A DNA stretch of 26,336 nt from a virus: positions 1 to 26,336 of the IMG/VR virus record IMGVR_UViG_3300027797_000119; one strand, written 5' to 3'. Positions 2,128 to 19,179 of the stretch are shown here, one piece after another (the first letter of the stretch is position 1; each line of letters starts with the position of its first letter). A program made the position numbers and the translations under genes. A model generated the notes under the pieces. The model saw only the letters and a list, made by a program, of their open reading frames with translations, was not told where the DNA came from and made no database searches.

Positions 2128-3027
2128 ATGTCTAACGCAATCGGAGGCTTGACCCTCCAGTTGGTGGCTGAAGAGTCCCTGCGGACGCTCGTCCCGCAAC
2201 TCCAGCCCCTCACCAAGATCGCGGTCACCGACTTCGGCGCCTATGTCGCTGAACGCGGTACCACGGTTCACACCCGCTACGCTGGCAAGTTCACGGCCGC
2301 TAATTACGCCCGCGCAACTGGCTTCGTTGAACAGGACGCCGTCTCGACGGATGTCCCGGTCACCCTCGTTGACCAGAAGCATGTAACCATCGCGTTCACC
2401 GACTACGAAGTCGCCACGCTCTCGATGGAACGCCTCCGTCGCCTCTTCATGGCTCCGATGGCTAACGCTGTCGTCAAGTCCCTGTTCGACCAGGTTCTCA
2501 CCAAGGTTGATACCTCCTTCGCCGACGGTTACGATGGCGCTCAGTCTGGATTCAACCGCATCGCGGTCTCCAACATCGCCAAGAGCCTGACCAAGGCTAA
2601 CCTCCCTCAGGAAGGTCGCTCGGCTCTTATCAGCCCCGATGCCTACCAGCAGTTGATCTCCGACCCGGTGATCGCCCAGGCGTTCTCCATCGGTACCTCT
2701 GAAGTCATCCGTGGCAACCGCCTCGGTATGATTCACGGCATCGACTTCTTCGAGTACAACGGCTTTGACGCCGCTGGCATCGAGGCTGGCCTCAATGGTG
2801 TTGTCTCCTGCAAGGAAGGTCTCGTTGTCGTGACCCGCGTCCCTGCCGCTCCCACGACTGGTGGTGGCGAACAGACGATCGTTACCGACCCGGACAGCCA
2901 GTTCTCGTATGCTCTGCGCTACTGGTACGACTGGTCGGCTGGTCTTCACAAACTGTCGGCCAACTGGCTCGTCGGTTCTGCGAAGGGCAACCCGGACGCG
3001 CTCCAGAAGATTTCCTTCACGGTCTAA
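2128..3027 (+). CDS. Major capsid protein
   Basis: A 299-aa protein that forms the icosahedral shell. Position and family features support the call: it follows portal, protease and scaffold candidate and ends at a strong terminator. The N-terminal part has the amphipathic SLRTLVPQLQPLTK segment. Then DQKHVTIAFTDYEVATLS (about residues 72-89) resembles the P22 gp5-like coat pattern in which a substrate-like strand precedes a conserved F-T/S-x-x-E/D motif. Next comes ISPDAYQQLISDPV (around 168-181), typical of HK97-fold coats. Codon use is strongly optimised, as expected for the most abundant protein. I cannot tell from sequence alone whether the family is P22-like or another HK97-fold branch. 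It is probably not itself cleaved, since it lacks a long delta domain. Confidence 0.82.
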   Translation: MSNAIGGLTLQLVAEESLRTLVPQLQPLTKIAVTDFGAYVAERGTTVHTRYAGKFTAANYARATGFVEQDAVSTDVPVTLVDQKHVTIAFTDYEVATLSMERLRRLFMAPMANAVVKSLFDQVLTKVDTSFADGYDGAQSGFNRIAVSNIAKSLTKANLPQEGRSALISPDAYQQLISDPVIAQAFSIGTSEVIRGNRLGMIHGIDFFEYNGFDAAGIEAGLNGVVSCKEGLVVVTRVPAAPTTGGGEQTIVTDPDSQFSYALRYWYDWSAGLHKLSANWLVGSAKGNPDALQKISFTV

Positions 3028-3033
3028 GTTTCA

Positions 3034-3054
3034 GAGGGGGAAAGTCTCCCCCTC
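3034..3054 (+). other. GC-rich hairpin after the capsid gene
   Basis: GAGGGGGA pairs with TCCCCCTC around a 5-nt loop, giving an 8-bp stem seven bases after the capsid stop codon. It has no T-tract. It sits just upstream of the real terminator and could protect the 3' end of the capsid mRNA from exonucleases (inference). Confidence 0.5.
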
Positions 3055-3069
3055 GCCGCGCCAATGCAG

Positions 3070-3105
3070 AGAGGCTCACCACACAAGTGGTGGGCCTCTT
3101 CTTTT
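3070..3105 (+). terminator. Rho-independent terminator after the capsid gene
   Basis: A 14-position stem: AGAGGC, a T-G wobble, and CACCAC pair across the loop ACAA with GTGGTG and GCCTCT, followed by TTCTTTT. This is a textbook intrinsic terminator. It would shorten a large share of transcripts after the capsid gene, raising the ratio of capsid mRNA to downstream tail mRNA. Its T-tract runs into the conserved element at 3103-3117. Confidence 0.78.
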
Positions 3106-3117
3106 GACCAGAGGCCA
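3103..3117 (+). promoter_or_regulatory. Conserved late-gene intergenic element, copy 2
   Basis: Exact TTTGAC-N3-AGGCCA (N3 = CAG). It begins in the T-tract of the capsid terminator and ends only 5 nt before the ATG at 3123. A terminator followed at once by this element could suggest a restart of transcription, but the very short distance to the ATG would then imply a near-leaderless mRNA. GAGG inside the element lies 8 nt before the ATG and could also act as a weak Shine-Dalgarno. Confidence 0.6.
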
Positions 3118-3122
3118 ACGGT

Positions 3123-3458
3123 ATGTCTATCTGGGATGAGTTCACGGCTGATGCCCAATCAATCCTTAATGAGATTGGTAAGGACATCACGATTAAGAAT
3201 GTCCCTGGTGGCACTCCTGTAGCGTTTAAGGCACAGGTTACCCAGCCTATGGTTCTCCAGGATATGGAGACTGGTGGCTTCCTTAATTCCACTACTTTTG
3301 AAGTGAAGGTTCTGCGTACCGTTGCGGCCAGCCATCCCGGCCTGTTTGCCTACGGAAACATCATCAACTACGATGGGCAGGACTACCGCATCGTGGCTAT
3401 CGCCAATCGTCCTCCGTCTGCTTGGCTTGTAGCCAAGGTTCAGACCAAGGAGCAATGA
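3123..3458 (+). CDS. Head-tail joining (head completion/stopper) protein
   Basis: A 111-aa beta-rich protein immediately downstream of the capsid gene, the slot of lambda FII and of SPP1-type stoppers, which close the filled head and offer the docking site for the tail. The sequence shows an N-terminal helix (SIWDEFTADAQSILNEIG) followed by alternating beta strands, including VKVLRTVAASHPGLFAYG and NIINYDGQDYRIVAIANRP. The last is a recurring pattern in phage attachment proteins (a glycine-turn strand pair near the C-terminus). The stop codon overlaps the next ATG (ATGA), so the two are translationally coupled. The assignment rests on size, secondary-structure pattern and synteny rather than an unmistakable motif. 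Confidence 0.65.
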   Translation: MSIWDEFTADAQSILNEIGKDITIKNVPGGTPVAFKAQVTQPMVLQDMETGGFLNSTTFEVKVLRTVAASHPGLFAYGNIINYDGQDYRIVAIANRPPSAWLVAKVQTKEQ

Positions 3459-4432
3459 TCACACAGTACGGTACGATTACGGTACGCAAAGGCGTAGTTA
3501 CCAACGAACAGCAATTGCGCCAGACCCTTGGCGCTTACTGCATCGTAATGGGTGGCAAGGTTGCCAATCTGCTAAAGAAGCAAGCCCGCCTATTCTGCGA
3601 CGATATGCTTGACTTCACTATGCCCTGGGAGGGAGGGATGGGGCATGATGGCCGTAGCGCTAGGGCTAGGCTCAATGGCGCTGACCGTGTTCAGTCACAG
3701 ATCAAGGGCATCTTCTTGCCCCTCAAGTTCGTTGGCGCCGGGGAGATCCTCCAGTATGGCAACGAAGGCGTCTTCTCTGCTTGGCTACGCGCCCGAAAGA
3801 AACTGTCCAATCCTATGCTCCCAAAGTGGCTCAAGGATGGGGACAATTTCCCCGGCCTTTGGACGAAGTTCCAGCAATGGGAGTTTGCCCAGCAGGAGGC
3901 GGCTATGAGTCCAGGTCTTGTCAAGTTGGACACCTTCAACAAGGGATCTGGCGTCATCAAGAGCATCCATGAGCGTGAACGAGGCGGCAATAACACCGAG
4001 GATTACTTCAAGAACATGAAGGCCGCATCCAAGTTCGGAACTCGCTATGTTGTGGACGATGATGGTAGCGCCGTGAAAGCCTATTCCAAGCGCGTGGAAG
4101 CCCATGTAGGCCGTTTGAAGGCCGGGTGGTACACCGCTGGCTCCCAACTCGGTAGACTCAAGAATGTGGGCTACTGGATCAGGGGTAACCAATGGAACAC
4201 AGGCACCCTTGTTAACCAACTGGGAAACCCTACCCGGCCTTCTGTTACTGTGGGTAACAAGGTTCAGGGACTGCATAGGGCTACCAGGGATGGGTACAAA
4301 CTAGCGATCAATTACCGCAATTACTCTATGCGTGAAGAAATTTACCAGAAACTGGTCAAAAACGGCAACGCCGATATGCTTTTCCATCTTGCCTCGCACC
4401 ACGGTATTGGTGGAGGATTCGATATCTCTTAA
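3455..4432 (+). CDS. Neck/minor tail protein in the gpZ position, long form
   Basis: A 325-aa protein starting at the ATGA overlap at 3455; AAGGAG lies just upstream, unusually close to the start. By order (after the stopper, before the tail terminator) it occupies the slot of lambda gpZ and HK97 gp10-like neck proteins. The segment RVEAHVGRLKAGWYTAGSQL (about 210-229) resembles the basic V-x-x-x-KAGW helix in that group. It is far longer than HK97 gp10 proteins (about 100-150 aa). The middle (residues ~95-190, with PKWLKDGDNFPGLWTKFQQW and a Gly/Asn-rich KGSGVIKSIHERERGGNN) matches nothing I recognise. The C-terminal GIGGGFDIS is Gly-rich. The structural role is likely; the exact role is uncertain. 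Confidence 0.5.
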   Translation: MITQYGTITVRKGVVTNEQQLRQTLGAYCIVMGGKVANLLKKQARLFCDDMLDFTMPWEGGMGHDGRSARARLNGADRVQSQIKGIFLPLKFVGAGEILQYGNEGVFSAWLRARKKLSNPMLPKWLKDGDNFPGLWTKFQQWEFAQQEAAMSPGLVKLDTFNKGSGVIKSIHERERGGNNTEDYFKNMKAASKFGTRYVVDDDGSAVKAYSKRVEAHVGRLKAGWYTAGSQLGRLKNVGYWIRGNQWNTGTLVNQLGNPTRPSVTVGNKVQGLHRATRDGYKLAINYRNYSMREEIYQKLVKNGNADMLFHLASHHGIGGGFDIS

Positions 4433-5831: not shown

Positions 5832-7291
5832 GTTCCGACGAAGTAAAAGTAAAGTTTGTCGCGGACACGACTGGCCTACAGAATGTCACCGTACCAAACC
5901 AGATCCCTGCGTCTGGCGGTGGCGCTAGTGGCGGCTCTGGATCTGGTGGTCGCGTTTCTGGCGGTACTCCTAGTGGCTCTGGTAACAACGGACAAACCCC
6001 ACCAAAGCGCCGGGATAGGGCTTCCTTCCCCTGGGAGCAAGGATGGGGGAATGAATTCAGCAAAGACATTACCGCTCAATTCTCTGGTATGCTATCTGGC
6101 ATCAATCTTGTTGGAGTGGCATGGGATGGAGCAAGGATGGCGGCAGAGAAGTATGTTGAGATGGTTAAATTGGGTGTAGAATATTCCCAGAAGATTGAAA
6201 AGGTTTCCCGCACTACTGGACTTTCAGCAGAAGAAATCCAGAAGTACGGTTACGCCGCCCAGATGTCTGGGGTTTCGTTTGAAACATTCGCAAATGCGAT
6301 GTCTAACGCCAACAAGGAACTTGGTAAACTTACCTTATACGGCGGCACAAGCATCATTGCCCTATCAAAACTTGGCATCAATGTAGACAGCGTAAAGAAC
6401 CACAGCGTAGGAGCCATCGATGTTCTGAAGAAGATGGCCGACGCCTACAAGAAACACGCCGAGACCGCCGAGATGGCCGCCCTGGGCAACCAGTTGTTCG
6501 GTGGATCATTCAAGGACATGATTCCTATGCTCCGCAATGGAAGCGCTGAAATCGAGCGTATTGCCGCCGCCGCACCTGTTGTAAATTCACAGACCATCTC
6601 TGCCTCTGCGGCACTTGGTCGATCTGGAACACAGATTGCTGAGACTGTTGGAGCAACATTGGCAGAAGACATCTCTGGATATAGCCGCGCTGAATCTATT
6701 TCAGCCGATAGGATGTCTGGCAGGGTTTCGTCTGGTGATGTCACGGCAAAGGAAGCAGTTGATAAACTGCTCCAACCAGCAAATCGCGGAATTCTTGCAA
6801 CCCTTACCAACTCCGCTTCAAGGTTTGGTGATTACGCAACAGCCTTTTTTTCACCAGGCAAAGCGCTAACAGACGAGGCAACTGGAACCAGCCTTGGCGC
6901 TGGAGCCGCTCGCTTTAACGCCGCAGAGGGCATCCGTGGCGCCGGGGAAGACACTAAGACAGTCCGTGATCGCTTCCTTGCTATGCGTGGTGGCAAGTTG
7001 GAAAATCTTTCTGAATCCGACAAGGCGATTATGAGCGCATTTGACGATAAACTGAAGGATGAAGGAAAGATGAGCCTTCAGGGTGGCGTCTTCCAGGCGG
7101 CGTCCAAGATGCAACAGGTTGGTGGCGGTGATGTACTTTCTGCCATTTCGCGTGTTGACTTGCAGGAAAAGATTGAGGGTAATACCCGGAGGATGGCTGA
7201 TGCTATGGACAACCTCCTTAACAAGAATCCTTTCGGTGGTGGCAACAACACACCTCCCCCTCCAGACACCAACGGCCCTCTAGCCAAATAA
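5828..7291 (+). CDS. Short tape measure protein
   Basis: A 487-aa protein whose central region matches tape-measure sequence style: YSQKIEKVSRTTGLSAEEIQ (about 119-138), then a G-V-S-F-E-T-F-A-N-A-M segment, ALSKLGINVDSVKN, and the pattern of a helix ending AALGNQLFGGSFKDMIPML (around 214-234). This pattern is shared by tape measures of many siphoviruses. Tape measures span the tail lumen and set its length; at roughly 1.5 angstrom per residue, 487 aa would imply a tail of about 70 nm, a family rule of thumb. Residues ~27-62 form an extreme Gly/Ser/Pro linker, and the C-terminus is Gly/Asn/Pro-rich. No clear transmembrane segment or hydrolase domain is visible. It starts in an ATGA overlap with the chaperone candidate. 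Confidence 0.65.
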   Translation: MSSDEVKVKFVADTTGLQNVTVPNQIPASGGGASGGSGSGGRVSGGTPSGSGNNGQTPPKRRDRASFPWEQGWGNEFSKDITAQFSGMLSGINLVGVAWDGARMAAEKYVEMVKLGVEYSQKIEKVSRTTGLSAEEIQKYGYAAQMSGVSFETFANAMSNANKELGKLTLYGGTSIIALSKLGINVDSVKNHSVGAIDVLKKMADAYKKHAETAEMAALGNQLFGGSFKDMIPMLRNGSAEIERIAAAAPVVNSQTISASAALGRSGTQIAETVGATLAEDISGYSRAESISADRMSGRVSSGDVTAKEAVDKLLQPANRGILATLTNSASRFGDYATAFFSPGKALTDEATGTSLGAGAARFNAAEGIRGAGEDTKTVRDRFLAMRGGKLENLSESDKAIMSAFDDKLKDEGKMSLQGGVFQAASKMQQVGGGDVLSAISRVDLQEKIEGNTRRMADAMDNLLNKNPFGGGNNTPPPPDTNGPLAK

Positions 7292-17181: not shown

Positions 17182-17409
17182 CTACTTGTAGTAGTTGATC
17201 ACCAATGGCAGACAAGCGATATTGTAATCAATCCAATCCCTAGCCATCTCATCGTCCCAACTTTCGTTTGTTTCGATTAGAATCTTGACCAGAGAATGGA
17301 AACTATAGATGAGGATTCCGTTTGGCATTTTGCCAACGATGGCCTTGTCGAAGGACTTGCGAGGCTCAAGCCTCGCTCGTTCCTTGGCTAGTTTTGTTTT
17401 TCGCTTCAT
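17182..17409 (-). CDS. Small phage protein with IYSFHSLVK motif
   Basis: A 75-aa protein starting at ATG 17409 within the end of the methyltransferase gene (44-nt overlap); a longer form would need a TTG. The N-terminus is very basic (MKRKTKLAKERARLEPRK). The remainder follows a pattern found in many short phage proteins: a hydrophobic strand with an aromatic (NGILIYSFHSLVKILIE), a helix with acidic/aromatic residues (SWDDEMARDWIDYNIACLP) and a final V-x-x-x-Y. Function is unknown in this family. It lies between the methyltransferase and the PrimPol-helicase genes and is probably co-translated with them. Confidence 0.6.
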   Translation of the reverse strand: MKRKTKLAKERARLEPRKSFDKAIVGKMPNGILIYSFHSLVKILIETNESWDDEMARDWIDYNIACLPLVINYYK

Positions 17410-18931
17410 CTTGGATAGTCTCAATCATCGCAATGCGTTCGCCAATCCATTTCGCACAAGGGACTGCCCAGGAGTTACCAATGGCCTTGTACCTAGGGCC
17501 AGCGGGGCAAGCGTCAGCGGGCTTACCCTTCCACGGAATCTTGGTGTGGTCATCTGGGAAGCCCTGGAGTCGCTCACATTCCTTTTCTGTGAGCCTTCTC
17601 ACAAGCATCTCATAATTGCTTGCCTGTGCAACTTTAGTGATCTCATCAATTGCTTCATCGGAGCATCCACCGCGCGACCCCTTGGCAGTTGTAAGCGCCG
17701 AAGTGACCACAGGCTGTGCAACGGCTTGGCAATGGGACTTCGTGATGGCGAACTGCGGGTCTCCCGGCTCACCGATGGTGTTACCCCAAGAGGTTGAACT
17801 CGGGGACATATTCTCCGTGTTGATAGGGATAGGCTGTCCCACGGCGTGTGGCCCTTTGGCAACCAAAGTGACCATCTGCTCCTCCTGCTTGATGTGAGGT
17901 TCGTACTGGGCGTTGGCGCCCTGGTTGAATGCCGCACGATCAAGGACAACAGGCTCGGGTACTAGGACGGCCGGGAAGCGGTTCTTCTCGGGCATTGTCT
18001 GGCCCTTCGCTAGAACGGCGTCGAGCGTCTGCGTTACTTGTCCTCCGTCCCAGAAGCACCCTCGGCTACCTTCTTCTCCAGCGCCCTTCGGAGCATTTCT
18101 GGGAGAGGCTTGCCGCGAGCCGATGCCCTGCGAAGGATTCCAGCGCAGGCTTTCGCGGTCAAAAAGTACTGCGGCGGGAGTGCGCCAGTCTCCAGCACCT
18201 GTGACAGGGTCGCGGTAGCCGCATAGCCAGACTCGCCGTCTTCGCTGTGCCACCCCGAAGTGTTGAGCGTCAATGATGCGGTATGACCACCCATACCCGA
18301 TGTCCCCCAGCGCTGTGAGGAGGGCCGCAAAGTCTGACCCTGCTCCTCGTTCCCCTCCAGATGTAAGGACGCCGGGGACATTTTCCCAAATGAACCACTT
18401 GGGTTTAAGAAATTCAACAAGTCCAAGGGTGACGAGGGCCAGGTTGCCACGAGGATCATCCAATCCTTTTCTGAGGCCTGCGGTGCTGAAGGCCTGACAG
18501 GGGCTTCCAGCGCAAACAAGGTCAACTGAGCCTGGGGTGAGTCCCCAGTCTTTCCATTTTGTGATGTCGCCATAGTTGGGTGTGTTGGGAAAGTGATGCT
18601 TGAGTACGGCCGAAGGGAAAGGCTCAATCTCAGAGAAGCCAACAGGCTCCCAGCCGAGTGATTCCCAGGCTACGCTGGCGGCCTCGATGCCGCTGAACAG
18701 CGAAAGGTATTTTAATTTTTTGGGTGTCATGGGTGGCTTGTTAAAAGGGTATGAGTAAGATCCATCGCCCTGTCCAGAGAAAAGGTATTGATCTTGTGTG
18801 GAGATAACCGTGAAGGCTTTATCCTCGCTTCCGAGGTATCCCTTCCCGGCCATCTTGCCGATGTTTGTGGAACCGCGCGAGCCGTCTTCACGCTCAACGC
18901 CGCCCCGAATCTTAAAGCAGATAGGTTTCAT
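17366..18931 (-). CDS. DNA C5-cytosine methyltransferase with N-terminal extension
   Basis: A 521-aa Dcm-like enzyme that transfers a methyl group from AdoMet to C5 of cytosine, probably to protect phage DNA from host restriction. All key motifs are present in the standard order after residue 68: I (LFSGIEAASVAW), IV (AGSPCQAFSTAG, catalytic Cys145), VI (ENVPG), VIII (QRRRRVW), a long variable region (~270-440), IX (RRLTEKECERLQGFPD) and X (YKAIGNSWAVP). ATG 18931 overlaps the previous stop as ATGA, so it is chosen; an ATG at 18730 would give the 454-aa catalytic core alone. The extra ~67 N-terminal residues (FKIRGGVEREDGSRGS; KGYLGSEDKAFTVISTQDQ) look like a piece of the variable region of related phage enzymes. 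No partner endonuclease is nearby, so it is an orphan. Confidence 0.9.
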   Translation of the reverse strand: MKPICFKIRGGVEREDGSRGSTNIGKMAGKGYLGSEDKAFTVISTQDQYLFSGQGDGSYSYPFNKPPMTPKKLKYLSLFSGIEAASVAWESLGWEPVGFSEIEPFPSAVLKHHFPNTPNYGDITKWKDWGLTPGSVDLVCAGSPCQAFSTAGLRKGLDDPRGNLALVTLGLVEFLKPKWFIWENVPGVLTSGGERGAGSDFAALLTALGDIGYGWSYRIIDAQHFGVAQRRRRVWLCGYRDPVTGAGDWRTPAAVLFDRESLRWNPSQGIGSRQASPRNAPKGAGEEGSRGCFWDGGQVTQTLDAVLAKGQTMPEKNRFPAVLVPEPVVLDRAAFNQGANAQYEPHIKQEEQMVTLVAKGPHAVGQPIPINTENMSPSSTSWGNTIGEPGDPQFAITKSHCQAVAQPVVTSALTTAKGSRGGCSDEAIDEITKVAQASNYEMLVRRLTEKECERLQGFPDDHTKIPWKGKPADACPAGPRYKAIGNSWAVPCAKWIGERIAMIETIQDEAKNKTSQGTSEA

Positions 18932-19179
18932 TTGGTGGCTCTGAAGTACGCAACCCTGCAATACCTACCATTGGTGGCAACCCTAAAAACTTTCTTTTCC
19001 ATTAATTTCTTTTCCACCCCAATAACAATAAATCTTTCGGCAGACGATCTCCTTACGCCCCACTCCTTCGCCCACTCATTTGTGTTAAAGAATCCAGGTG
19101 GAATCTTCTCCCCCTCGGACAACCTCTCCTGATGGATGAGGTCTAGAAGTCTTTGCGCTTCTGATTTGGAAGGTGCCAT
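18928..19179 (-). CDS. Winged-HTH-like small DNA-binding protein
   Basis: An 83-aa protein with a helix-turn-helix-like core: FFNTNEWAKEWGVRRSSAER (about 30-49), a recognition-type helix FIVIGVEKKLM and a C-terminal beta hairpin (KKVFRVATNGRYCRVAYFRA) that would be the wing. The pattern W-A-x-x-W-G-V with a downstream R-x-x-x-F-R-V is shared by short phage proteins. It could be a transcription regulator of the early genes or a small DNA-structure protein. It overlaps the phosphoesterase gene by 37 nt and ends in an ATGA overlap with the methyltransferase. No operator can be pinned to it. Confidence 0.6.
   Translation of the reverse strand: MAPSKSEAQRLLDLIHQERLSEGEKIPPGFFNTNEWAKEWGVRRSSAERFIVIGVEKKLMEKKVFRVATNGRYCRVAYFRATK

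Follow-up and report, generated by a model that had tools for sequence, protein, structure and literature searches.

The stretch of viral DNA analysed here (a virus record of 26,336 bases, hereafter the window) encodes a C5-cytosine DNA methyltransferase that is probably a multispecific phage enzyme in which one target recognition domain (TRD) is placed at the N-terminus rather than between motifs VIII and IX. An earlier note had offered a relocated recognition module as one explanation of the N-terminal extension of this protein. This reading is supported by homology, by position, by selection and by the existence of natural siblings without the module, and a recognition function is predicted from them. 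On one strand the window presented matches to a portal protein fragment (below the Pfam cut-off), a major head protein and a tape measure protein, and on the opposite strand matches to a helicase, a DUF3799 nuclease, a RecT-like annealing protein, an SSB and a primase.

The methyltransferase gene occupies positions 17366..18931 of the minus strand and its product, including the N-terminal module, has 521 amino acids, as defined by the open reading frame and by Pfam and NCBIfam matches. Motifs I, IV, VI, VIII, IX and X were found in the canonical order and the core is intact. Motif I (YLSLFSG, 18689..18709) begins at residue 75 and is followed by motif IV with the catalytic PCQ (18494..18502), motif VI (ENV), motif VIII (QRRRR, 18233..18247), the start of motif IX (RRLT, 17588..17599) and motif X (GNS), all of them on the minus strand. 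The match to the Pfam family DNA_methylase (PF00145) started at residue 74 (E 8.4e-51) and that to TIGR00675 (dcm) at residue 76 (E 3.2e-50). By its motif order and these family matches the protein is a C5-cytosine DNA methyltransferase, and cytosine methylation is its predicted activity. The canonical variable region between motifs VIII and IX (17603..18154, minus strand), delimited from the sequence and coinciding with low AlphaFold2 confidence at residues 260-444, holds several further module-like segments, on which the putative multispecificity of the enzyme is based. The family phrog_864, labelled DNA primase, also matched residues 86-511 of the methyltransferase; a fusion or a mis-annotation is probably behind that label.

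The module itself corresponds to residues 1-51 (18779..18931, minus strand), so that the extension does precede motif I, as had been described, and searches, identity and pN/pS values identify it as homologous to VIII-IX segments of related phage enzymes. Residues 1-67 were searched alone, as the earlier note had proposed, and matched 48 virus contigs. An alignment search gave four more contigs carrying the segment. With a degenerate pattern written for the second half of the segment, 75 stretches were recovered, of which 36 were contigs already found and 39 were additional ones. Among these 91 other virus contigs, which are partly non-independent and include several near-copies, the segment was internal in 70, placed before motif I in 11, and truncated or unclear in the remaining 10. 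All the internal cases had it downstream of motif IV and upstream of motif IX, save two that end before motif IX. Eleven internal copies were aligned with the window module and showed 72-78% identity over about 45-50 residues. When a single internal copy served as the query, the window N-terminus was matched with an i-E of 3.9e-18, far beyond chance. Such one-sequence searches were relied on, the pooled profile of all modules being weak (the window's own module obtained an i-E of 76 with it). The claim that this type of segment normally lies between motifs VIII and IX was thus borne out.

Where the segment is internal, it forms part of a series of modules of about 30-50 residues each, often with short VAQP-like linkers between them. 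Across the contigs tallied, no second copy of the module was found within the same protein, which is to be expected if each module represents one specificity. In the passages of PMC5944983 concerned with it, target recognition by C5-methyltransferases is located in the VIII-IX region, and PMC8936443 describes, in the part devoted to them, tandem TRDs in Bacillus phage enzymes. Because of its homology and its location in the target-recognition region, the segment is considered a TRD-like module that would take part in DNA recognition.

Some variation in the modules of related enzymes was also observed. Although the enzymes are 96% identical, that of contig L003 contains, between motifs VIII and IX, about 40 module-like residues more than those of the window and L002, and this additional stretch may be the product of recent module turnover. 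An internal-module enzyme of L207 (ORF 34-2262) carries a long insertion between motifs IX and X, and the last 60 residues or so of the L114 product (ORF 2498-4048) look TRD-like by eye and are placed after motif X, at the C-terminus. At about positions 2310-2520 of L149 and L150, a short TRD-like ORF lies just 5' of another phage methyltransferase. The ORF and the methyltransferase are joined in one continuous frame in L149. The L150 sequence has 4 additional bases in a GA dinucleotide tract, and there the frame is interrupted. This arrangement, found in these two contigs only, is possibly a phase-variable N-terminal recognition module.

The 11 contigs with the module before motif I form, together with the window, one phage group with conserved synteny. 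Wherever the carrier contigs reach, the methyltransferase is surrounded by a phosphoesterase, an 83-amino-acid gene, an 80-amino-acid gene and a primase. Two loci of this group, L104 and L105, share these neighbours and have no module; there an ATG and motif I follow almost immediately after the 83-amino-acid gene. In the window the 83-amino-acid gene is located at 18928..19179 of the minus strand and, as in the module-less loci, adjoins the methyltransferase. No match was found for its product in PHROG, Pfam or NCBIfam; on visual inspection the product is similar to small winged-helix proteins. In a tree of the methyltransferase core, the carriers, L104, L105 and three loci ending before motif I constituted one branch (98/98), inside which the placements of L105 (93/91) and L104 (94/91) had moderate support. 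The module label needs three changes on this tree, and the starred branches alone force only one. The history of the module is best read as one gain followed by two losses, other scenarios, recombination among them, being possible.

This genomic layout also bears on a second explanation of the earlier note, according to which the extension is the remnant of a tandem methyltransferase; its catalytic part would then have been lost. The homology of the segment to a methyltransferase variable region would agree with such an origin. However, the interval from the module to motif I contains neither motif IX nor motif X; the module-less L104 and L105 have the same conserved 83-amino-acid gene as their upstream neighbour; and the module is conserved, without decay. 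A remnant is consequently very improbable. Nor does the extension represent an ordinary N-terminus of Dcm proteins. The whole protein matched 1726 phage records and the best 60 of them align from residue 61 or later, none (0 of 60) covering residues 1-60, and close relatives exist without the extension.

Selection was studied on nine distinct genes with the N-terminal module, pooled, leaving out the near-duplicates L007, L008 and L012; the pN/pS values come from a simple pairwise method in which the pairs are non-independent. The module (residues 2-51) gave a pooled pN/pS of 0.147, the lowest of the parts compared, the core (residues 73-255) 0.26 and the C-terminal part 0.274, and the bin containing the linker (residues 52-72) reached 0.615. 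On this last value, the stretch joining module and core (residues 52-67; 18731..18778, minus strand) is a fast-evolving linker. Between the window and L003, codons 2-51 differ by 13 synonymous and 0 nonsynonymous changes. Accordingly, the module is a translated, constrained part of the protein and the linker is a loose one. As purifying selection is strongest in the module, initiation does take place at 18931. The ATG of this full-length start overlaps the TGA of the upstream gene (ATGA, 18931-18928), and the end of that gene together with the overlapping start reads GAGCCACCAAATGA (18928..18941, minus strand).

The opposite view, that Met68 (18730) is the sole start and the 201 bases upstream are untranslated, draws on the conservation of Met68, on a preceding sequence that resembles the one at the upstream start, and on the fact that module-less relatives begin at the equivalent place. 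However, synonymous changes predominate in codons 2-51, and the ATG overlapping the upstream stop was found in all carriers. A start solely at 18730 was ruled out by the synonymous bias in the module, and we regard it as scarcely credible. The selection on residues 2-51 leaves Met68 (18728..18730, minus strand) as a possible second start, which would give a module-less isoform. In the window, the surroundings of the upstream start, GAGCCACCAAATGA, and those of Met68, CAAGCCACCCATGA (18727..18740, minus strand), are alike. All 10 aligned rows have an ATG after the module and before motif I, in 9 of them at the place of Met68 and in the other just after it. No Shine-Dalgarno sequence was evident by eye at either of the two starts. 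Because of the similar surroundings and of the ATG conserved between module and motif I, Met68 looks like the ancestral start, and it may still be in use.

Structure prediction gave no confident model of the module in either position. The AlphaFold2 model of the window protein, built on a 36-row alignment, was confident for most of the core and had pLDDT <50 at residues 1-68 and 260-444; the same gap was seen in the internal-module enzyme of L016 (residues 190-307, pLDDT <50). As the module is modelled with low confidence in both positions, the models neither support nor contradict a TRD fold. The module profile did not match any PDB sequence, and residues 1-68 gave no Pfam family at E up to 10.

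These data were also considered in relation to M.SsoII, which, in the portion of PMC3978073 describing it, carries some 70 additional residues, with a flexible linker, ahead of the methyltransferase domain, as the window enzyme does. The N-terminal module might bind DNA as a regulatory domain, repressing or tuning transcription of its own gene as the N-terminal region of M.SsoII does, and not confer methylation specificity; it is true that it hardly changes among enzymes that exchange their internal modules. However, the M.SsoII N-terminus is a predicted helix-turn-helix (same portion of PMC3978073), whereas that of the window is a homologue of variable regions; residues 1-68 have no Pfam match at E 10, no helix-turn-helix was seen in the low-confidence AlphaFold2 model of the N-terminus, and the homologues of the module are variable-region modules and not regulators. 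Therefore, the M.SsoII-like autoregulatory type was discarded on the absence of a Pfam match for residues 1-68 and of such helices in the low-confidence model, and a regulatory role in general seems unlikely.

It is unlikely, too, that the module functions otherwise, through protein contact, stability or control of the internal TRDs, or that it is a tolerated passenger. The lack of a predicted fold and the two sister loci without the module point in this direction. Against it, constraint on the module exceeds that on the catalytic core and falls on the same residues in N-terminal and internal copies. This speaks for one and the same role at the two locations, and a passenger would not have persisted. 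The near-constancy of the N-terminal module while internal modules turn over freely suggests a further, tentative idea. The N-terminus could be a privileged slot holding a constant module with a fixed purpose, for instance anchoring to, or marking, a site conserved in the phage group or its host, and the long and short isoforms could switch that purpose; we consider this doubtful.

As regards its spread, the module and two internal versions of it were compared by tblastn with 50,697 phage records and no match was obtained at E up to 0.01 or up to 10. A 49-amino-acid core piece of the window enzyme, used as positive control, matched 1516 phage records. An alignment search for the module in a species-level genome collection did not give any match, and the degenerate pattern found in that collection one record only, the Bacteroidetes MAG L252. 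As far as these collections show, the module is a trait of viruses without an isolate record. Around positions 6577-6611 of the reverse strand of L252, an ORF that lacks motifs I-VIII contains a module, some 85 unrelated-looking residues, more module-like stretches and motifs IX-X.

C5-methyltransferases are usually presented with one fixed place for sequence recognition. The methyltransferases of Bacillus phages SPR, phi3T, rho11 and H2 reportedly have all their TRDs at the canonical place. They resemble the window enzyme in having several short modules between motifs VIII and IX, as the relevant part of PMC8936443 describes, and differ from it in that the window enzyme has one module at the N-terminus. 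Variable-region sequence is N-terminal, as in the window, in the circularly permuted M.BssHII, M.Alw26I and M.Esp3I (in the passages of PMC5944983 on these enzymes). However, in these three proteins motifs IX and X precede motifs I-VIII, whereas they remain C-terminal in the window enzyme. For this reason circular permutation was ruled out, and the functional permutation suggested previously did not hold in that form.

The closest parallel is M.phiBssHII. In this enzyme one TRD reportedly precedes motif I, at the N-terminus, and further TRDs occupy the usual place; the N-terminal one is said to give HaeII specificity and to be present in one of two isoforms. By homology, the window enzyme likewise combines a TRD homologue before motif I, with a predicted TRD role, and a canonical variable region. 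If that description holds, the window enzyme would work like M.phiBssHII. According to the title of its report (Sethmann et al., 1999, EMBO J 18:3502), M.phiBssHII is a C5-methyltransferase of phage type whose recognition domains occupy separate locations, like those of the window enzyme. The window group differs in belonging to uncultivated phages, in having the same module internal in other phages and in its natural module-less siblings.

The flexible linker would tether the N-terminal module to the core, and the module would dock over the DNA cleft, alternating with the internal TRDs. The docked module would add one methylation specificity, which in turn would protect the phage DNA from one more restriction enzyme, and initiation at Met68 may yield a shorter isoform with the internal specificities only.

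The window enzyme is best regarded as another naturally occurring case of an arrangement that is known but rarely documented, and it adds a population-level case to the single precedent reported in 1999. The group with the N-terminal module, the phages carrying it internally and the module-less siblings constitute a ready-made test of the portability of recognition modules and of how phages widen their protection against restriction.
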